A DNA stretch of 36,830 nucleotides from Rubidibacter lacunae KORDI 51-2 (GTDB taxonomy: Bacteria; Cyanobacteriota; Cyanobacteriia; Cyanobacteriales; Rubidibacteraceae): contig NZ_ASSJ01000050.1 of NCBI RefSeq assembly GCF_000473895.1, positions 1-36,830 of the forward strand, in the 5' to 3' direction. Position numbers and translations under genes: made by a program. Positions 145-34,780 of this stretch are shown piece after piece (positions within the stretch are counted from its first letter, which is position 1; each line of letters begins with the position of its first letter). The notes under the pieces were generated by a model. It was not told where the DNA came from. It did no database searches and saw only the letters and a program-made list of their open reading frames with translations.

Positions 145-861
145 TCAAGTTTTGTCTTGGCTGTAGGCAACATTTTTAAAGGTGACGCAGTTATTGGCGG
201 GATTATAGAGGGTGTAGGTTGCCTGTCTCGGAGTTCGTCCAACAGCCCCAGTGCCAACAACGCGGCGGGCTGTTTTCCCCTCTTGCTGCTGCTCCTGCTT
301 CCCGCCCAGAGTGGTGACTGTAGAGCGGAGTTTGCTGGGGGTTACCCAACATTCAAAGGCCAGCCCCGATCGCCCACAGAATAGGTTGTTGGCATCTGCA
401 CGGATGAGGCGATCGCACAACTGAACCGCGGGTGTGTTCGGTGTGAGTTCATCAGCATAACTCACTGTACTTCCATGAATCATTAAGCAGTCTAACTCGT
501 GAAAGCCAAAGTGATGCGAACGCAACCACCCCACCGACTCACGCGATACCGATTCCCACAGGTGCTTGACCCCATCGCCACCAAATTCTGCCATCAACTC
601 GGGAGCATCAGGCGAGCTACTAAGCCCGTGCAAGCTAAAGCATTGCTCTTCCCACCAACCGATGCAAACCTGAGGTTCTAGTTCTCCCGAGCGGGGCGAT
701 CGCAATCGCTCGATCGTCGCCTCATTATTTCCCTTTAGCCCTACTACATCTCCTATGATGTATAGATCGGTGACCGGGCTGCGCTGCCGTCGAATATCCT
801 GCAATACCGCTTCATAGGCTACTAAATTGCCCTCAATACCACTCAAAATTGCCCATTTCAT
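145..861 (-). CDS. Degenerate metallophosphoesterase-fold protein
   Basis: This 238-aa protein has the layout of a small calcineurin-like metallophosphoesterase, but most metal ligands are gone. The first motif, normally D-x-H-G-N, reads SGIEGN (residues 7-12). GDVVG (37-41) keeps its Asp. The GNHE motif reads GNNE (44-47). The single HGS histidine (129) remains, and the final G-H-x-H is replaced by CGRSG (162-166). The start ATG follows a GAGG about 13 bases upstream. It is the last gene of the minus-strand zinc-type cluster, 425 bp downstream of the ccmM-like gene, so it may have its own promoter. The family assignment rests on the motif framework. Loss of a conventional two-metal phosphatase centre is inferred from the substitutions, so it may be a pseudoenzyme or bind ligands without metal. 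Confidence 0.7.
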   Translation of the reverse strand: MKWAILSGIEGNLVAYEAVLQDIRRQRSPVTDLYIIGDVVGLKGNNEATIERLRSPRSGELEPQVCIGWWEEQCFSLHGLSSSPDAPELMAEFGGDGVKHLWESVSRESVGWLRSHHFGFHELDCLMIHGSTVSYADELTPNTPAVQLCDRLIRADANNLFCGRSGLAFECWVTPSKLRSTVTTLGGKQEQQQEGKTARRVVGTGAVGRTPRQATYTLYNPANNCVTFKNVAYSQDKT

Positions 862-1285: not shown

Positions 1286-2221
1286 TTACTCAGGCTTCTG
1301 AATCGTTCGTTCCAACTGACGCCGTTTCGCCCTGGGGTCAATGCCTAACAATCGCACATAGTCGCCGGGACGATCCGCTAAAAACTGCTCCACCTGGTTG
1401 AGTACCCGGGCTTCATGATCACTAGCAATTGTAGGACCGCTCTGCCATGAGCCTGCTTTAAAACGGCGGGCATCGGCAAATTCCAGACCAATGTGGTGTC
1501 CTAAGCGGAGTTGTTGCTCGATAACATCGACGATGTCTGCTCTCAAAGAGCGAGCCATCGGGCCTTTTAGAGGCATCGATTGGAAACCCTTAGTGGATGA
1601 GGAATCCTGCGAAGCCGTGACGCAGGCAATGTCGTTCGCGCAGCGGTACCCAGCTCGCAGGGACTGGTTGATTTCGACCACATGATGAGAAAAAGTGCGA
1701 TCGCTCTCATTGGCATCCGGTAGTCGATCGGCAGCCTGTTGGGTTGTAATCACCGCTCCTGATGGCACATACTTACCGCGAGGAATCTCCACATCCTGTA
1801 TTAGGGCGTGCATCATCACAATGCAGCCGTGGCCTACCTGGGCGTTGAACACTGTGGAGCGAAAGCCAATAAAACATTCATTCCCAACGTAAGCCGGTCC
1901 GTGGATCAACGACATGTGGGTAATGCAGGTGTCGTGGCCTATCCACACCGAGTAGGGTTCCCGATCGTCCCCTAAGACACGCCCCTGCTCTAACCCATGG
2001 ATAACCACTCCATCCTGAATGTTGGTATTCGCCCCAATGTAAAAGGGAGACCCTTCATCGGCTCGAATGGAGGTATTGGGAGAAACGATCGCATTTTCGC
2101 CCAGCCGTACATCCCCAATCAAACTGCTCTGGGGATGGACATAGGCAGATGCGGCAATGGTGGGCCGATCCCGATCGCTGTCCCAGGGTGTTGGTGGAGC
2201 GGGTTGATGACGGAGCGGCAT
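1286..2221 (-). CDS. ccmM: CcmM paralog: gamma-carbonic anhydrase plus one RbcS-like module
   Basis: Residues 1-210 form a left-handed beta-helix gamma-carbonic anhydrase domain matching the N-terminus of carboxysomal CcmM. The three expected metal histidines are present (His75, His102, His107), as is a cysteine pair (Cys194, Cys200) that in CcmM forms an activating disulfide. After a short linker there is one RbcS-like (SSUL) module (about 223-308) with the signatures [11 protein letters not shown] and YVRLLGIDP. Carboxysomal CcmM normally carries three or more such modules, so this 311-aa protein is a short-form paralog. AAGGAG lies seven bases before the ATG. The gene begins 15 bp after hisI, implying one transcript. 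Expected role: a bicarbonate/CO2 enzyme that can also dock on Rubisco, here placed among zinc-starvation genes. Zinc dependence of this copy cannot be read from sequence. Confidence 0.9.
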
Positions 2222-2236
2222 GTAACTCTCCTTGGT

Positions 2237-2722
2237 TCAAAGTTGAGTGGGATTGGGAGCATTCCCATAGACGGCGATGGGGTCAAACGTTTTGGTGGTT
2301 TCCGTAAACGCGAGCGCAATGGGGCGACCCGCCTTAATATCACCCTCACCAGGAGATACCTGACGGTAAAAGCAAGAGCGATAGCCCACATGGCAACTGG
2401 CCCCTGTTCCAGCTACAGCGACCTTCATCCACAGACAATCCCGATCGTCATCAATTAGCAATTGCTGCACGGATTGCATCAGTCCACTAGTTGCGCCTTT
2501 ATGCCAGAGCTGCTGACGACTGCGGCTGTAGTGGTGGGCTTCGCCCGTTTCAAGGGTTTTCAGCAACGCCGCTTCATTCATATAGGCGTGCATCAGTACC
2601 TCGCCGGTTGCAGCATCTGTGGTAACCACAGGGATGAGCCCATTCGCGTCAAACTTGGGGGCCAAGAGCATCCCTTCTTCGACAACTTCAACTGAAGTCC
2701 GGTCAGCAAATCGTGATGGCAT
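2237..2722 (-). CDS. hisI: Stand-alone phosphoribosyl-AMP cyclohydrolase
   Basis: HisI hydrolyses phosphoribosyl-AMP in the third step of histidine synthesis and is a zinc enzyme. From the ATG at 2722 the protein has 161 aa. It shows an acidic D-x-D-x-D stretch (91-95) followed by [14 protein letters not shown] (107-120), the family zinc-cysteine signature. There is no fused HisE pyrophosphohydrolase domain, whereas many cyanobacteria use a bifunctional HisIE, so this is likely an extra copy. Another in-frame ATG lies at 2752, but the sequence there overlaps an inverted repeat (2741-2756). Neither start has a clear ribosome binding site. Extra HisI copies are known members of Zur-type zinc-starvation sets, which fits the neighbours: FeoB-like upstream and ccmM-like 15 bp downstream. 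Confidence 0.88.
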
Positions 2723-2943
2723 GGCACGACAGACTGTAAGAATAATATACATTATTGCATAGTTTTGCGAACTACATCGGTTACAACCTAGGGCAAACGC
2801 ATACAGATTTCTGTGCCACGATCGAATTTAGGGTTTCAGCATTCTGGAGTGCTTGAACTGAGCTCTCCGTTCTCAACAAGTCCCGCTAGAGTCTCGCATT
2901 TTGCGACGATCGAACTGAGATTCTGAGTTTGTGTTTCCCCTAG

Positions 2944-4681: not shown

Positions 4682-5806
4682 CTAACAAATGCAGTCATTG
4701 CTGCAGCAGGAGAGGTCATCGAGGAAAAGTCCGCCCTCGCGGTAGGCATCAAGGGGGCTGGGGTCAAGACCAAGGCGATGGGCGATCGCATTGGCCACCA
4801 CCGCAAAGCGTTGGCGAAACTTGTAGATGAAGCAAAAGATCAAATCCCCATGGCGCACGGAAGGTCCTGTGACAAAGAGGCCAGGGGTGAGCGTGGATTC
4901 ATCGTTCTCAGTGAGGGCAGCATAACCCTCGGACCAATCAAATAGGGACACAATCTGTTTCAAGCTGGTGTCGAAGCCGGTGCAGAGAATGGGGGGATGG
5001 GCTGTCGTCCACTGCTGATATTCGCTGTAGACTGCGTAGCCCCCTGAAATAGGTCTGACTTCCTCGATGCTGGCGTTACCGACCATATCCAGGCGGCCTG
5101 TGCGGTAAACAAACTCCAATCGCTGAAGCGTGTAGGGGGAGAGGGCAATGCTGGGGTCGGTGTCGGGATTAGCCCAAGCCCCGGTGCGATCGAGCACGCC
5201 GACTTTCTTACCCAGCGCTACTAAATTGGCAGCGGCATCCATACCGCTTTCGTACCCGCCGATGATGATGAATTCGTCGCCCTCCAGACCCGCCCACGAT
5301 CGAATTTGAGTGTTGTGGATGCAGTGCTCTGCCCCCAGAAAGGGATTGAGATGGGGATATTGATATTCCCCAGCGGCCCAAATGACAAACCGGGCAGACA
5401 GGTCACCGTTGCTAGTGCGCAGAGTAAAGCCTCCCTGGGGCAGAGGCTCAACGGTTTGTACATCTACTTCTGTTTGGATCGGCAACTCAAAGCGATCGGC
5501 AACGGTCTGCAAGTACAACGCGTATTGCTTACCGCTGATGTGCTCTCGCCGAAAGGCGAGAGCAGGTGAGGTATTTAAGGTCACTGCATTCAGGTCGAGC
5601 AATCCAAAACCATGACTTGGGAATGAAGGAGTAATGAATTTCATCTCCTCAGGCCAGCGGCTGAAGGATGCTCCAACCTGGTGTCTTTCTAAAACTGTGA
5701 AGCGCTCTAGACCCAGTTCTTTAAGCACAACGCCACAACCAATGCCGGCAGCTCCGGCACCAACGATCGCTACGTCATAGGACCGATCCGCTTGGGATTG
5801 CTTCAC
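4682..5806 (-). CDS. CzcO-like FAD-dependent oxidoreductase with Cys-rich tail
   Basis: This 374-aa flavoprotein has an N-terminal FAD-binding GAGAAGIGCG (17-26) and a second dinucleotide-binding GGYESG in the middle, the layout of the CzcO/flavin monooxygenase-like NAD(P)H oxidoreductases. It ends in SCCSNDCIC, a compact cysteine tail (Cys367, 368, 372, 374) that looks able to bind a metal or form redox disulfides. Translation starts at a GTG, 23 bp downstream of the strongest operator in the window (5829-5857), so it is the first gene of a transcript that runs on into the FeoB-like gene. CzcO relatives were named for association with cation-efflux loci, but their substrate is generally unknown. 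Substrate and partner are unknown here too. Confidence 0.82.
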   Translation of the reverse strand: MKQSQADRSYDVAIVGAGAAGIGCGVVLKELGLERFTVLERHQVGASFSRWPEEMKFITPSFPSHGFGLLDLNAVTLNTSPALAFRREHISGKQYALYLQTVADRFELPIQTEVDVQTVEPLPQGGFTLRTSNGDLSARFVIWAAGEYQYPHLNPFLGAEHCIHNTQIRSWAGLEGDEFIIIGGYESGMDAAANLVALGKKVGVLDRTGAWANPDTDPSIALSPYTLQRLEFVYRTGRLDMVGNASIEEVRPISGGYAVYSEYQQWTTAHPPILCTGFDTSLKQIVSLFDWSEGYAALTENDESTLTPGLFVTGPSVRHGDLIFCFIYKFRQRFAVVANAIAHRLGLDPSPLDAYREGGLFLDDLSCCSNDCIC

Positions 5807-5828: not shown

Positions 5829-5857
5829 TATATGAAAATGATAATCATTCTCATATA
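5829..5857. promoter_or_regulatory. Zur/Fur-type operator upstream of the flavoprotein gene
   Basis: A 29-bp palindrome centred on 5843 with a single mismatched pair (5836/5850). Its core is AATGATAATCATT (5837-5849). It lies 23 bp before the GTG start of the CzcO-like gene. The core matches the cyanobacterial Zur box pattern (TGATAATnATTATCA-like), and Fur boxes are similar. Zur is preferred because of the gene set it controls. Confidence 0.8.
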
Positions 5858-6583: not shown

Positions 6584-8446
6584 CTAAATTTGTTGTTTGT
6601 TGATAACTGAATGCTGCATTTTTCCCTGAAGTTCTGACAGCGTCAATGCTCCGATTTCTCCTGCTTGACGGGTTCGTACACTCAAGGTCTGGTTTTCCAC
6701 TTCCCGTCTGCCAATAACCGCAACCATTGGGATCTTCTCCAACTCAGCCGAGCGTATTTGCTTGCCTAGTCGCTCGCCACTAGTATCGACTTCTACTCGA
6801 AAGCCTCCTTCTTGGAGTTGTCGAGCAGTTGCCTCAGCATAGGAACGATGCGCGTCACCGACTGGCAGCAAGCGTATTTGCACGGGCGCTAGCCATAGGG
6901 GGAAAGTACCCGCATAATTCTCCACCAAAATCCCAAAAAAGCGCTCCAAAGAACCGAAAATGGCCCGATGAACCATAATCGGGCGCTGGCGCGTGCCATC
7001 CGCCGCCACATAGTTCAAATCAAACCGTTCCGGTAAATTGAAATCCACTTGAATTGTCGAACATTGCCAGAGTCGCCCAATGGCATCTTGAATTTTGATA
7101 TCGATTTTAGGTCCATAAAATGCGCCACCGCCTTCATCGATCGCATAGTCCCAACCCTTAGTATTTAATGCTTCTACTAAAGCATCGGTAGCGAGTTGCC
7201 AAATGCCATCAGTTCCAACCGATTTAGCAGGACGGGTCGAAAGATTCACTTCATACTCGGAAAAACCAAAGTCCGATAAAATTTTCTCCGTCAGATTTAG
7301 CACTCCTAAAATTTCCTGTGCCGCCTGCTCTGGGAGACAAAAGATGTGAGCATCATCCTGGGTGAAGCCCCGCACCCGCATCAACCCATGTAACACCCCC
7401 GATCGCTCGTAACGATAGACTGTCCCCAACTCTGCCCACCGGACCGGCAGCTCGCGATAGGAATGCAATCGGCTTTGGTAGGTCAAGACATGGAACGGGC
7501 AGTTCATGGGTTTGAGCTGATATTGCTGCGCTTCAACTTCAATGGGGTCAAACATGTTCTCCCGATAGAAGTCGACATGACCTGATCTTTTCCACAACTC
7601 CACGTTTGCTACATGGGGGGTATATAACAGGTCATAACCTGCTGCCAGATGCGCCGAACGCCAGTAATCCTCAATCAACAACCGCATCCGCGCACCCTTA
7701 GGATGCCAGAATACTAACCCGCCTCCCGCATCTTCTTGGATGCTGAATAAATCCAACTCTTGTCCCAGCTTCCGATGATCGCGGCGCTTAGCTTCTTCTT
7801 TCTGCTGTAGATAGGCTTGAAGTTGGCCGGGGGTTTCCCAGGCAGTACCATAAATCCGCTGCAACTGGGGCTTGGTCTCATCCCCGCGCCAGTAGGCTCC
7901 GGCCACACTTTCCAGCGAAAATGCATCGGGGTGAATATCTCCCGTAAAGTTTAGGTGTGGTCCTGCACAGAGATCCCACCACACCTCCGTGGGGGGCACA
8001 GTGATTGGATGAATTAAGGATGGTTCGATCTCGGGATGTGAGGCAATCCCCACATCTGGGGAGCCAATAAAGTAGCGGGTAATGGGTTCATCAGCAGGAA
8101 TGCTATCGAGAATTTCTTCTTTGTAGGGCTCCTGGAGTGCGATTATTTCCGCTCGAATGTCTTCCCGGTTTACGACCTCTCGGATAACAGGCAGGTTTGC
8201 TCGAACGATCCGCCGCATCTCTATTTCAATTTGCTCTAAGTCTTCAGGGGTGAAGGGTTTAGGGCGTTCGAAGTCGTAGTAGAATCCAGTCTCTGTCCAG
8301 GGACCGATCGTGACCTTGGTTTCGGGAAATAGGGTTTGCACCGCCATTGCCAAAACGTGGGCACAAGTATGCCGAATCCGCAGCAATGTCTGTGGGTCAC
8401 CTTGAGGGCAAGAGGATTGTTGGGAAGATTTAACCGGATTCAGCAT
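6584..8446 (-). CDS. thrS: Threonyl-tRNA synthetase, probable zinc-starvation copy
   Basis: Class II ThrRS of 620 aa that charges tRNA-Thr. It lacks the N-terminal TGS domain and opens directly in the editing domain, whose residues are present: RHTCAH (about 25-30) and LCAGPH. The catalytic zinc ligands are also kept: Cys in MNCPFH, His in RGFTQDDAHIF, His in RPIMVHRAIFGS. The ATG at 8446 is chosen over a TTG two codons earlier because a degraded duplicate upstream (9440) preserves the same ATG. A Zur-type operator lies 13 bp upstream. In Anabaena a second ThrRS (T2) is induced by low zinc through Zur and is poor at proofreading; the operator suggests this is the T2 equivalent, although the signature editing residues look intact here. 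Confidence 0.92.
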   Translation of the reverse strand: MLNPVKSSQQSSCPQGDPQTLLRIRHTCAHVLAMAVQTLFPETKVTIGPWTETGFYYDFERPKPFTPEDLEQIEIEMRRIVRANLPVIREVVNREDIRAEIIALQEPYKEEILDSIPADEPITRYFIGSPDVGIASHPEIEPSLIHPITVPPTEVWWDLCAGPHLNFTGDIHPDAFSLESVAGAYWRGDETKPQLQRIYGTAWETPGQLQAYLQQKEEAKRRDHRKLGQELDLFSIQEDAGGGLVFWHPKGARMRLLIEDYWRSAHLAAGYDLLYTPHVANVELWKRSGHVDFYRENMFDPIEVEAQQYQLKPMNCPFHVLTYQSRLHSYRELPVRWAELGTVYRYERSGVLHGLMRVRGFTQDDAHIFCLPEQAAQEILGVLNLTEKILSDFGFSEYEVNLSTRPAKSVGTDGIWQLATDALVEALNTKGWDYAIDEGGGAFYGPKIDIKIQDAIGRLWQCSTIQVDFNLPERFDLNYVAADGTRQRPIMVHRAIFGSLERFFGILVENYAGTFPLWLAPVQIRLLPVGDAHRSYAEATARQLQEGGFRVEVDTSGERLGKQIRSAELEKIPMVAVIGRREVENQTLSVRTRQAGEIGALTLSELQGKMQHSVINKQQI

Positions 8447-8459
8447 ATCCAATCGAAAC

Positions 8460-8478
8460 GAGAATGGTTATCATTCTC
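8460..8478. promoter_or_regulatory. Zur/Fur-type operator of thrS
   Basis: GAGAATG-GTTAT-CATTCTC, a 19-bp palindrome centred on 8469 with one G/T mismatched pair. It ends 13 bp before the thrS ATG and shares its arms with the boxes at 5843 and 9463. Binding here would block transcription start or ribosome access. Confidence 0.78.
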
Positions 8479-8590
8479 AATTTAGCATTGTGCATCATGT
8501 CTGCGCTCAGGAAGACCAGCGGGTAGATCGGTGTCGTCCTGTTAGTCTTGAGAGATTGCTGGAACCAACTCCATGGTGATGAGAAATTCC

Positions 8591-9229
8591 TCAGCGCAAC
8601 GGTGGGGTATGGCGAATCAAATTCATAAACTCCTGACGGGTGCTGTCATTCTCTGCAAAAACCCCTTGCATGGAGCTAGTCACGGTCCAAGAACCGGGTT
8701 TTTGTACCCCCCGCATGACCATACACATGTGGGTTGCTTCCACCACCACGGCAACCCCTTGCGGTCGCAATAGTCCCTGCAAAGCACTAGCAATTTGTTG
8801 GGTCAGCCTTTCTTGTACCTGCAAACGACGGGCATACATTTCACAAATGCGTGCAATTTTGGATAAACCAATGACTTTGCCATTGGGAATGTAGGCAACA
8901 TGAGCGCGTCCCAAAATAGGCAGGATATGGTGTTCGCATGAGCTAAACAAGTCAATGTCACGTACCAACACCATCTCATTGGCATCTTCGTGGAATATCG
9001 CCCCATTCAACAATTCATCCAGAGACTGGTTGTAGCCGGAGGTTAGAAACTTGAGGGCTTTAACAACACGTTTTGGCGTGTCGCGCAGACCTTCGCGGTC
9101 GGGATCTTCCCCTAAACCCAAGAGCAAGGTGCGGACTGCTTGCTGCATTTCCTCCTCCGAGACAGGGGCTTTAGGTTCGGTAAGGATAGCTTGCTTGCGG
9201 ATATCGTCGGGCAAGTTGGAGAAGTCCAT
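8591..9229 (-). CDS. folE: GTP cyclohydrolase I (type IA)
   Basis: The 212-aa protein converts GTP to dihydroneopterin triphosphate, first step of tetrahydrofolate/pterin synthesis. The zinc-site signature SSCEHHILP lies in the middle, and [15 protein letters not shown] near the C-terminus supplies the second cysteine. It is therefore the classical zinc-dependent FolE, not the zinc-independent FolE2. It starts with ATG at 9229 with no clear ribosome binding site. The stop lies about 110 bp before the thrS operator, in the same direction. The nearest operator upstream is at 9454-9472, giving a leader of over 200 nt that runs through the thrS remnant. folE copies are known in Zur-linked clusters. 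Confidence 0.93.
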
Positions 9230-9298: not shown

Positions 9299-9440
9299 GA
9301 TCGCGAGCTTAGTTTCGGGGAAAAAAGTCTGCACCGCCACTACCAAAACGCGGACACTAGAAATGTCGAATTATCAGCAACGTCTGCGGGTCGTTCTGAG
9401 TGCAAGAGGATTGTTGAGAAGATCGGCCCGAGCTCAGCAT
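9299..9440 (-). pseudogene. Duplicated, decayed 5' end of thrS
   Basis: The ATG at 9440 opens MLSSGRSSQQSSC, then NDPQTLLIIRHF and a TAG, clearly the start of the neighbouring ThrRS (MLNPVKSSQQSSC, then GDPQTLLRIRHT). After the stop a shifted frame continues VAVQTFFPETKLAI, matching VAMAVQTLFPETKVTI-like sequence of the real gene. Homology ends near 9299. Stop and frameshift show that it no longer encodes ThrRS. It lies between its own operator copy and folE. Confidence 0.85.
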
Positions 9441-9453
9441 AGCCAGTCGAAAC

Positions 9454-9472
9454 GAGAATGATTATCATCCCC
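9454..9472. promoter_or_regulatory. Zur/Fur-type operator upstream of folE
   Basis: GAGAATGATTATCATCCCC, centred on 9463, pairs at seven of nine positions; the core AATGATTATCAT is intact. It is the duplicate of the thrS box and the only visible operator upstream of folE, about 225 bp before the folE ATG. Confidence 0.72.
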
Positions 9473-33253: not shown

Positions 33254-34780
33254 ATGCCTGTTTTGGGGTTAATGCTACTGTTGCTTGGCTTGCTGACCTA
33301 CGCGATCCTGCGTCGCAGCGTTGCCGGATTGACGCGGACGCCGCTGTGGCTGCTCTGGTCGGTCATGATGATGCCGGCGTTTGTCTGGAGCGCGTGGATC
33401 CTAATCGCCGGTGAAGATCGACCCATGCCAGTGCTACTAGCACTGGCACCGTTTTTAATCTGCCCGCCCTTATACCTCTGGCTCGTCCAGCGCGGCCGCC
33501 GCAAACCGCCGCGCCAGGACGCGCCGCCCTCAGACCGACTGGCAGCGAACCTCGCGACCGACCGACCGACTGCTACGGTACCCGAAACAGCACCCGAAAA
33601 GGCACCACGCTTGCTCGCTCCCGAAGAAGAAAAGCAGTTGCGCAACTGTTTCCCCTGGAGCGTGTACTATCTCCAGCACGTCGATCAAAATCTACAAGCC
33701 GTGCTCTGTCGGGGCAAGTTGCGCGCGGCGTCCGACGAGGCCTACCGCAAGATTGCCGGCAATATTCAGGCTGAATTCGGCGATCGCTTTCTCGTGGTGT
33801 TCCAGGAAAGCCTGCGCGGCGAGCCTTTTTTTGCCCTGGTGCCCAACCCCCGTTCGCGCGATCGCCTCAATGTCGAGGGCGAGCAGCCGCTCAACCGCCC
33901 CGGCTGGTTAGTGGGTTTGTTACTGCTAACCCTCGTGACGACGGCAAACATCGGCTGGCAGCTTGCGGCAGTTTTTGAGAACCCCGCTACCGACTTCAGC
34001 AATACTGAATTCACATACGAACTGCTGCTGCAGGGATTGCCATACACCCTGGGATTGATGACGATCCTCGGTGCCAAAGAACTCTGCCATTACAGCGTCG
34101 CGATCGCCTATGAGATCCACTCGACGCTACCTTATTTCATCCCCGTCCCCATCGCTCCAGGCACCTTCGGCGCGTTCGTAATCATGCGATCTCCCATCCC
34201 AAATCGACGTGCCTTGTTCGACGTGGCAATTGCCGGACCGCTGTGCGGCTTTGCGGTAACGATTCTTATTTTGCTGTGGGGCCTCTCGCTGTCCCAAGCC
34301 GTTCCGCTGACCGAAGACTCAACGATACTGAGTATCAACGCCTTGGATCCGCGCTTCTCGTTGCTGCTAACCGTTTTTGCCAAGTTAACGCTCGGCGAGC
34401 ATTTTAGCGCCGGGGCGGCAATCCAAATGCATCCGCTGGCCGTAGCTGGGTACGTCGGCTGGATCGTGACGGCCTTAAAGCTCATCCCCTTCGGCCAGCT
34501 CAATGGCGGCAACATCGTCCACGCCATTTACGGCATTCGCACCGCAGCAATCGTCGGTCAAATTGCGCGCTTGCTCTTGCTGTTGCTCGCTTTAGCCGAG
34601 CCGTGGTTTTTGGCGGTGGCAATCGTGCTATTCTTCTTGCCGTCGATCGGTGAGCCCGCTCTCGATGACGTTAGCGAACTCGACGATCTTCGCGACGCGA
34701 TCGGCCTAACCGTGCTGGTGCTGCTCCTGGCGATGGTATTGCCGATGCCGCAAGTGTTGGCGCAGTGGCTGAACGTATGA
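33254..34780 (+). CDS. S2P-like membrane protein with broken protease site
   Basis: The 508-aa protein has two N-terminal helices, a soluble domain (85-215), and a site-2-protease-like membrane core from about 217. The expected HExxH is KELCH (residues 275-279; AAA codon at 34076), so the first zinc histidine is gone. The third ligand, the Asp of the C-terminal motif, is Asn in GQLNGG (Asn417; AAT at 34502). NRRALFDVAIAGPLCGF and PVAVAGYxGWIVTALK-type segments otherwise match the cyanobacterial/plastid EGY group. Plant EGY3 is a known inactive member. Likely a pseudoprotease; a chaperone or regulatory membrane role is inferred. Confidence 0.8.
   Translation: MPVLGLMLLLLGLLTYAILRRSVAGLTRTPLWLLWSVMMMPAFVWSAWILIAGEDRPMPVLLALAPFLICPPLYLWLVQRGRRKPPRQDAPPSDRLAANLATDRPTATVPETAPEKAPRLLAPEEEKQLRNCFPWSVYYLQHVDQNLQAVLCRGKLRAASDEAYRKIAGNIQAEFGDRFLVVFQESLRGEPFFALVPNPRSRDRLNVEGEQPLNRPGWLVGLLLLTLVTTANIGWQLAAVFENPATDFSNTEFTYELLLQGLPYTLGLMTILGAKELCHYSVAIAYEIHSTLPYFIPVPIAPGTFGAFVIMRSPIPNRRALFDVAIAGPLCGFAVTILILLWGLSLSQAVPLTEDSTILSINALDPRFSLLLTVFAKLTLGEHFSAGAAIQMHPLAVAGYVGWIVTALKLIPFGQLNGGNIVHAIYGIRTAAIVGQIARLLLLLLALAEPWFLAVAIVLFFLPSIGEPALDDVSELDDLRDAIGLTVLVLLLAMVLPMPQVLAQWLNV

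Follow-up and report, generated by a model that had tools for sequence, protein, structure and literature searches.

Carbonic anhydrases need zinc, and the upkeep of the carboxysome of beta-cyanobacteria in zinc-poor water is an open question. It is addressed here through a gene, termed ccmM2, in a stretch of 36,830 nucleotides from Rubidibacter lacunae KORDI 51-2 (contig NZ_ASSJ01000050.1; "the window" denotes this whole stretch). What could a second, short CcmM be needed for in this cyanobacterium, and what is to be made of the genes beside which it is encoded?

Architecture of CcmM2 and the main CcmM of the genome

The gene is read on the minus strand (Table 1); a plus-strand reading of positions 1286-2221 is ruled out by 11 stops. 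Its 311-aa product, CcmM2, has the order of gamma-carbonic anhydrase (gamma-CA) domain and Rubisco-small-subunit-like (SSUL) module that is typical of CcmM. Pfam detects Hexapep (3.9e-13) and one RuBisCO_small stretch (residues 227-310, 3.2e-12), while phmmer aligns residues 4-203 with the CcmM gamma-CA of PDB chain 3kwc_A (2.9e-91) and residues 222-310 with the CcmM SSUL of PDB chain 6mr1_A (2.2e-22). The first-pass annotation had described a protein with all gamma-CA residues and a single SSUL module. His75, His102, His107, Cys194, and Cys200 are all found where it had placed them, and the single module is confirmed by the one RuBisCO_small stretch and the one region matching 6mr1_A.

It had also taken the protein for a paralog of CcmM, the number of modules being the comparison to be made. 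A separate CcmM is indeed encoded elsewhere in the analyzed genome (4.15 Mb, 99 contigs). It has 686 aa and four SSUL modules versus one in CcmM2 (G000:C49:94756-96813), and its gene is preceded by two genes resembling ccmK and one resembling ccmL (names read from translations). This rules out that ccmM2 is the sole ccmM of the genome. Because of the longer protein, we regard ccmM2 as a satellite paralog, and it is located outside the main ccmK-L-M-N locus. The two proteins are 62% identical over residues 5-310 of CcmM2.

With the NCBIfam CcmM model NF053794 (cut-off 550 bits), the main CcmM scores 848.7 bits and CcmM2 479.7 bits, which is under the cut-off. The same holds for all seven short proteins scanned (468-497 bits), while both long proteins scanned exceed 550 bits. 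The whole-protein score counts repeats, so that a one-module protein can hardly reach this value. CcmM2 thus shares its gamma-CA and SSUL domains with the full-length CcmM (M58 type) of beta-carboxysomes but differs from it by one SSUL instead of three to five (range as given in PMC5853843), by a position off the ccm locus, by its low-zinc neighbours, and by a score below the NCBIfam cut-off.

Gene row and Zur-like boxes in the window

In the direction of transcription on the minus strand, the genes are folE, thrS, the gene for a flavin-dependent oxidoreductase, the FeoB-like gene, hisI2, ccmM2, and an unnamed gene (861-145). hisI2 is directly upstream of ccmM2, with 15 bp between the ORFs, and is itself preceded by a gap of 191 bp. 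The gene had been placed between hisI and a Zur-type gene set; the adjacency to hisI is correct, but ccmM2 does not lie between the two, as the other low-zinc genes are upstream of hisI.

Table 1. Features of the ccmM2 island, with coordinates in the window
Feature	Coordinates	Strand	Basis
Unnamed gene, recurs in 4/27 short-ccmM loci	145..861	minus	recurrence
ccmM2, satellite CcmM (gamma-CA domain + one SSUL module), 311 aa	1286..2221	minus	ORF, Pfam, phmmer, residue check
Single SSUL module of CcmM2, residues 224-311, Cys-free, Arg252-Arg253 kept	1289..1552	minus	Pfam RuBisCO_small, 6mr1, dN/dS, Cys count
gamma-CA domain of CcmM2, residues 1-203, with His75, His102, His107, Cys194/Cys200	1613..2221	minus	3kwc match
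hisI2, phosphoribosyl-AMP cyclohydrolase, second genomic copy	2237..2752	minus	Pfam PRA-CH
FeoB-like GTPase/Gate membrane protein, 569 aa	2944..4653	minus	Pfam Gate, MMR_HSR1; NCBIfam feoB below cut-off
Flavin-dependent oxidoreductase, Cys-rich C-terminus, head of row	4682..5806	minus	Pfam Pyr_redox_3
Overlapping pair of Zur-like boxes with 1 and 2 mismatches, upstream of the oxidoreductase start by 27 bp	5833..5853	.	pattern match
thrS2, second threonyl-tRNA synthetase	6584..8452	minus	NCBIfam thrS
Overlapping pair of weaker Zur-like boxes with 3 mismatches each, close upstream of thrS2	8459..8479	.	pattern match
folE, second GTP cyclohydrolase I	8591..9229	minus	NCBIfam FolE
Zur-like box, 2 mismatches, about 220 bp upstream of folE	9453..9467	.	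pattern match

The genome has two copies of hisI, and further copies of thrS2 (56% identical) and of the folE of the island (72% identical) are found elsewhere in it. Paralogs of HisI, ThrRS, and gamma-CA have been tied to Zur in proteobacteria (Haas 2009, PMC2770081), and for Anabaena a review (PMC6103462) lists hemB2, thrS2, and folE2 among the genes regulated by Zur. By this analogy, the gene set of the ccmM2 island resembles the known low-zinc kit.

Several other features of the island are recorded here. The FeoB-like GTPase/Gate protein, the gene for which is present in 14 of the 27 short-ccmM loci treated below, may be a metal transporter that takes part in the low-zinc response. The flavin-dependent oxidoreductase could be an enzyme of the low-zinc set that handles metals or thiols; its Cys-rich tail (CC-S/D-NDC-x-C) is kept in all 13 short-ccmM loci having the gene, including that of genome G679, where the gene has a box of its own. 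For the gene at 145-861, which occurs in the window, L049, L072, and L154, there was no match in Pfam or NCBIfam; its start resembles a metallophosphoesterase by eye. Between the box at 9453 and folE, a minus-strand stretch (9318-9440) is similar to ThrRS residues 3-43 (51%) and contains a stop, being perhaps a relic of an older thrS2.

Zur-like boxes were searched with a 7-1-7 pattern which we take to be the consensus of cyanobacterial Zur. The 7-1-7 form is also used by Fur in other bacteria. Allowing up to three mismatches, the window has six matches where 0.72 are expected, one of the six being far off, at 34323. Five places in the whole genome match with up to two mismatches, and three of these are in the ccmM2 island (two of them overlapping); a reversed control pattern matches at four places under the same conditions. 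The only one-mismatch place of the genome is the box which heads the ccmM2 row. A term search in the accessible text of PMC10957091, PMC4628125, PMC12058595, and PMC9337993 did not find the cyanobacterial Zur consensus.

Some details of the window speak against the low-zinc reading: the box at 5833-5853 is 3.6 kb upstream of ccmM2, the gap before hisI2 contains a weak promoter-like match, a weak terminator-like match is located at 4681-4658, and directly before hisI2, at a place where many relatives have a box, there is only a remnant with five mismatches. Neither of the two weak matches is clearly above shuffles, and the same applies in this region to the sigma-70-like hexamers which the box pair overlaps.

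Short and long ccmM loci in other cyanobacteria

In a survey of the phylum (386 genomes, 124 matching at the required E ≤1e-60), short frames were found in at least three genomes, and in a survey of the order (388 genomes, 303 matching at 1e-110) in at least ten genomes among the matches listed, R. lacunae being included in each case. Within the family of genome G296, two of 29 have short frames. A scan of named genomes, comprising the best 80 of 420 relatives, yielded 20 short and 60 long loci, the latter being biased to intact gamma-CA domains because the query by which they were selected was itself intact. Altogether, 26 loci besides the window (27 in all) were classed as short; two of the 26 are frame-broken, one is cut by a contig end, and one was matched only from residue 54. 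Among the carriers are Leptolyngbya sp. PCC 7375 and PCC 6406, Adonisia turfae CCMR0081, Nodosilinea sp. LEGE 07088, two Symploca MAGs, Geitlerinema sp. P-1104, and Phormidium willei.

Short and long loci of the named-genome scan differ in their upstream regions. Zur-like boxes with up to two mismatches occur in the nearest 1.5 kb upstream of 15 of 19 short but of none of 59 long loci, and within 8 kb in 16 of 19 versus two of 59 (L061, short, and L127, long, had too little upstream DNA and were left out). The 1.5-kb stretches of the short set contain 23 boxes (overlapping pairs counted) versus 0 in shuffles, and the 8-kb stretches of the long set contain 2 versus 3.5 in shuffles. Seven further short loci, including the window, have a box within 1.5 kb in four cases and within 8 kb in all seven, the three with the more distant box being the window, L049, and L154. 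Loci from repeated genomes (L050/L057, L052/L059, L053/L068, L054/L075, and L055/L077) were entered once in the box, residue, and marker counts.

Of the long loci, just two have a box in the 8-kb stretch. One of them is L118 from Hyella patelloides, where a one-mismatch Zur-like box (about 7460) precedes the main ccmK-ccmK-ccmL-ccmM row by ~465 bp.

The gene neighbourhood shows the same division. At least one of 12 low-zinc marker genes is found in 21 of the 27 short versus two of the 60 long loci, each of these two having a hisI match. hisI2 was detected in 18 short loci; in 17, the end of the match and the ccmM2 start are separated by 18-41 bases. A lone ccmM2 (L038, L039, L075, L077) has its box about 60-170 bp upstream. 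In Leptolyngbya sp. PCC 6406, one strand carries genes for a CobW_C protein, an ABC-3 permease, and an ABC ATPase together with znuA and hemB, and the other strand a FUR-family gene, hisI2, ccmM2, COG0523, folE, and COG0523; in G669, a box without mismatches precedes thrS, a small gene, hisI2, and ccmM2, and the surroundings include folE, COG0523, and a FUR-family gene. Genome G679 (L155, 9580-10527) encodes a more distant short CcmM (54%), with a box 8 bp from the start and a neighbouring cysS running in the opposite direction. Neither a box nor a marker gene was found in L068 (= G462) and L109, and L066 has hisI2 but only boxes with three and four mismatches.

Instead of zinc, iron acting through Fur might control ccmM2, or some other member of the FUR family might do so. 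The box form is shared with Fur of other bacteria, a FeoB-like protein is encoded in the row, and R. lacunae has three FUR-family genes, each of which may be a Fur, PerR, or Zur. The FUR-family gene beside ccmM2 in L072 also fits the Fur and PerR models better than the Zur model, with all scores below the cut-off. We nevertheless consider this alternative unlikely, as the neighbouring genes either serve zinc uptake or encode paralogs of zinc enzymes (znuA, hemB, hisI, thrS, folE, cysS, COG0523) and five places in the genome with up to two mismatches are few for an iron regulon.

The three His ligands, the N-terminal PPTPW stretch, and the Cys194/Cys200 pair reportedly all have roles in active CcmM-type gamma-CA. 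The His ligands and the Cys pair are kept in each of 24 short proteins, and so is PPTPW, with a P10L change in one of them. (L067, L076, and L109 belong to the 27 loci of the marker count but not to these 24 proteins; L070, which is cut by a contig end, is among the 24 but not on the tree described below.) Conservation is lower in 12 main CcmMs from a subset of the genomes having a short copy: both Cys are kept in 4/12, PPTPW in 5/12, and His75 in 9/12. Since the Cys pair is lost in 8/12, the short form is the only one of the two CcmMs with the full set in eight of these 12 genomes. In R. lacunae, both CcmM2 and the main CcmM have the full set, as do all 60 long proteins of the named-genome scan, a sample picked by likeness to an intact query. 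A metal switch read from lost ligands is not supported, because the usual metal ligands are all kept in the short protein.

The SSUL of the short CcmM is under purifying selection: its dN/dS is 0.08-0.22 in nine of ten pairs and 0.58 in one, compared with 0.03-0.13 for the gamma-CA domain and 0.25-1.95 for a 20-codon linker. In the alignment, the Arg pair of this module corresponds to R251/R252 of SSUL1 from S. elongatus, with the first Arg kept in 24/24 and the second in 23/24 short proteins. R251/R252 are needed for self-condensation and are within a region that is also used in Rubisco binding (PMC8580825). The SSUL lacks Cys in 22 of the 24 short proteins (one of the 24 is cut short). A Cys-free SSUL was rejected as a diagnostic, given that SSUL1 is also without Cys in 20/60 long proteins and in 6/12 main CcmMs.

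A constrained SSUL would also be expected if CcmM2 modulated the scaffold, lowering the valency of the CcmM-Rubisco network and thereby altering the size or number of carboxysomes, with catalysis beside the point. R166 and D174 of CcmM2, which are aligned with the residues of the head-to-head salt bridge in S. elongatus (R164/D172), are invariant in a ten-row alignment (one copy per genome where locus and genome entries repeat), and an engineered one-SSUL construct strongly cut condensation with CcaA and abolished homodemixing (PMC8580825). A pure modulator would, however, have no need for the catalytic and regulatory residues, which are kept in 24/24 short proteins even where the main CcmM has lost some of them, and this makes such a role very improbable.

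A tree was computed from 61 rows; its long rows include L073 and L074 and a random draw of 24 from 58 others. A single group (support 100/99) unites 22 of the 23 short rows, with L155 outside; a constraint to one clade for all short forms was not rejected (p-AU 0.183). The group carries the labels Leptolyngbyaceae, Nodosilineaceae, Geitlerinemataceae, Coleofasciculaceae, and others, together with the family of G669 and that of R. lacunae. The short CcmM of G679 (L155) may represent, perhaps, a second and independent origin of a low-zinc one-SSUL CcmM. The grouping of 22/23 short rows and the constrained SSUL rule out that ccmM2 is a truncated or decaying copy.

Decay or sequence error is seen in individual relatives: an early in-frame stop in L067 (10001-10945), a frame change in L076 (10001-10944), and a second fragment in L062 (12117-12509) with the end of the gamma-CA domain and the SSUL.

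In the phylum survey (E ≤1e-60), none of six relatives from the family of R. lacunae has a short copy, five having one longer match each and one having none. This distribution makes a sideways transfer of the ccmM2 island into the lineage of R. lacunae plausible.

The only good match to a beta-CA (CcaA-like) in the genome of R. lacunae is split into two frames, with a stop in one (G000:C82 20709-21181, minus strand, within L157). This is either a broken gene or an error of the draft assembly; if real, the frame break raises the weight on the gamma-CAs.

Single-SSLD satellite CcmMs are known from Leptolyngbya and Acaryochloris (Long 2011, as cited by Sommer 2017, PMC5853843) and from Microcoleus and Rubidibacter (Sommer 2017, PMC5853843), and the latter article proposes that they recruit extra CA activity to Rubisco. 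ccmM2 is the same kind of gene: a second ccmM with one SSLD, off the locus, and with a full ccmM elsewhere. For Rubidibacter, the suggestion would amount to an ordinary extra carboxysomal CA in strains whose CcaA does not function, and zinc shortage would give it no special role. The two-frame beta-CA would suit this, as would four of ten short-ccmM genomes which have no beta-CA match (one of the four being 93% complete). Five of the ten, however, have an unbroken match; absence of CcaA is thus not a general reason for the short form. As the boxes and the low-zinc neighbours would also be left unexplained, we regard this as quite improbable.

A candidate low-zinc carbonic anhydrase of the carboxysome

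We consider it likely that CcmM2 is a Zur-repressed spare carboxysomal gamma-CA which is carried to Rubisco by its one SSUL, and that it serves as an enzyme more than as a scaffold. The proposal starts from observed features, namely the architecture, the kept residues, the second copies, the boxes, the neighbourhood, and the constraint on the SSUL. Two features of a Zur regulon are found at ccmM2: a Zur-like box stands before the row, and the low-zinc neighbourhood is kept across genomes. With these boxes, the second copies of zinc enzymes, and the COG0523, znu, and FUR-family neighbours in relatives, the low-zinc reading appears well supported by comparative genomics. The first-pass annotation had thought of a low-zinc form of the carboxysome "scaffold/enzyme"; the low-zinc part of this stands, for the same reasons, and for the rest the enzyme is favoured over the scaffold.

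The gamma-CA-like domain of the S. elongatus construct gamma-CAL-1S is reportedly inactive. This engineered construct (residues 1-313 of CcmM; Zang 2021, PMC8580825) has domains like those of CcmM2 and nearly the same length, but it is artificial and its SSUL1 forms a disulphide, whereas natural short proteins are mostly Cys-free in the SSUL. It showed no self-condensation and condensed poorly with CcaA (PMC8580825), and its loss of self-condensation argues for a tagged enzyme rather than a scaffold.

The proposed course of events is as follows. When zinc is sufficient, zinc-loaded Zur would bind the box at 5833-5853 and shut off the row, presumably co-transcribed, from the oxidoreductase gene through the FeoB-like gene and hisI2 to ccmM2. 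When zinc falls, Zur would be released, and CcmM2 is predicted to be made together with the spare copies of the zinc enzymes HisI, ThrRS, and FolE. CcmM2 would trimerise via its gamma-CA domain. The three SSULs of the trimer, one per chain, may still bind Rubisco, in line with the three contacts named in the first-pass annotation, and would thus dock CcmM2 for entry into the forming carboxysome. Inside, a disulphide between Cys194 and Cys200 would activate CcmM2, which could then supply CO2 at times when metal is lacking for the usual carboxysomal CA. Having one SSUL, CcmM2 would accompany the main CcmM as a cargo enzyme rather than build the Rubisco network.

Free carbonic anhydrase in the cytosol of a cyanobacterium leads to loss of the bicarbonate pool. 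Docking would keep CcmM2 out of the cytosol, where it would drain this pool, and an SSUL that docks on Rubisco combined with a redox switch would solve the problem. The idea of a low-zinc gamma-CA is that of Haas 2009, where iron is also suggested for gamma-CA (PMC2770081). The Zur-linked gamma-CA "Cam" of proteobacteria is likewise a gamma-CA paralog found with HisI, ThrRS, and COG0523, but it belongs to bacteria without carboxysomes and appears to be without a Rubisco-docking module, which CcmM2 has (Haas 2009, PMC2770081).

The first-pass annotation knew of no description of such a low-zinc form. The architecture has been described, as one-SSUL satellites, including one in Rubidibacter, are already in print (PMC5853843); for the zinc link, the annotation agrees with the literature searched. 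A term search of the accessible text of PMC5853843 returned no occurrence of the word "zinc" and thus no zinc link for satellites there, and "Zur" occurs in the searched text of this article and of PMC13249358 only as a German word in a reference. In the literature covered, which included a minority of the subscription journals, nothing was found that links CcmM or the carboxysome to Zur or zinc limitation. Within that literature, only the zinc link of the one-SSUL satellites looks unreported.

Given the FeoB-like gene in the row, Fe(II) is worth considering as the metal of CcmM2. A bolder version, which we find rather doubtful, is that zinc status rebuilds the carboxysome: at low zinc, release by Zur would provide a tagged Fe(II) gamma-CA, fed by the FeoB-like protein, in place of the CO2 supply from zinc-bound CAs. 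Where the main CcmM has lost catalytic residues, the satellite would then be the only catalytically complete CcmM, with scaffold and enzyme split between two genes and the enzyme under metal control.

If the likely reading, a Zur-repressed spare gamma-CA with a Rubisco tag, is true, zinc sensing reaches into the carboxysome via one tagged enzyme, and zinc chelation or loss of Zur should alter carboxysome composition. The proteobacterial answer, a plain Zur-linked gamma-CA, would harm the cyanobacterial cytosol, so that a Rubisco-tagged gamma-CA may fill this slot. CcmM2 might also serve carboxysome engineering as a natural minimal design of tag plus enzyme. The single-module satellite CcmMs that are already in print would, if this holds, have been given a purpose.
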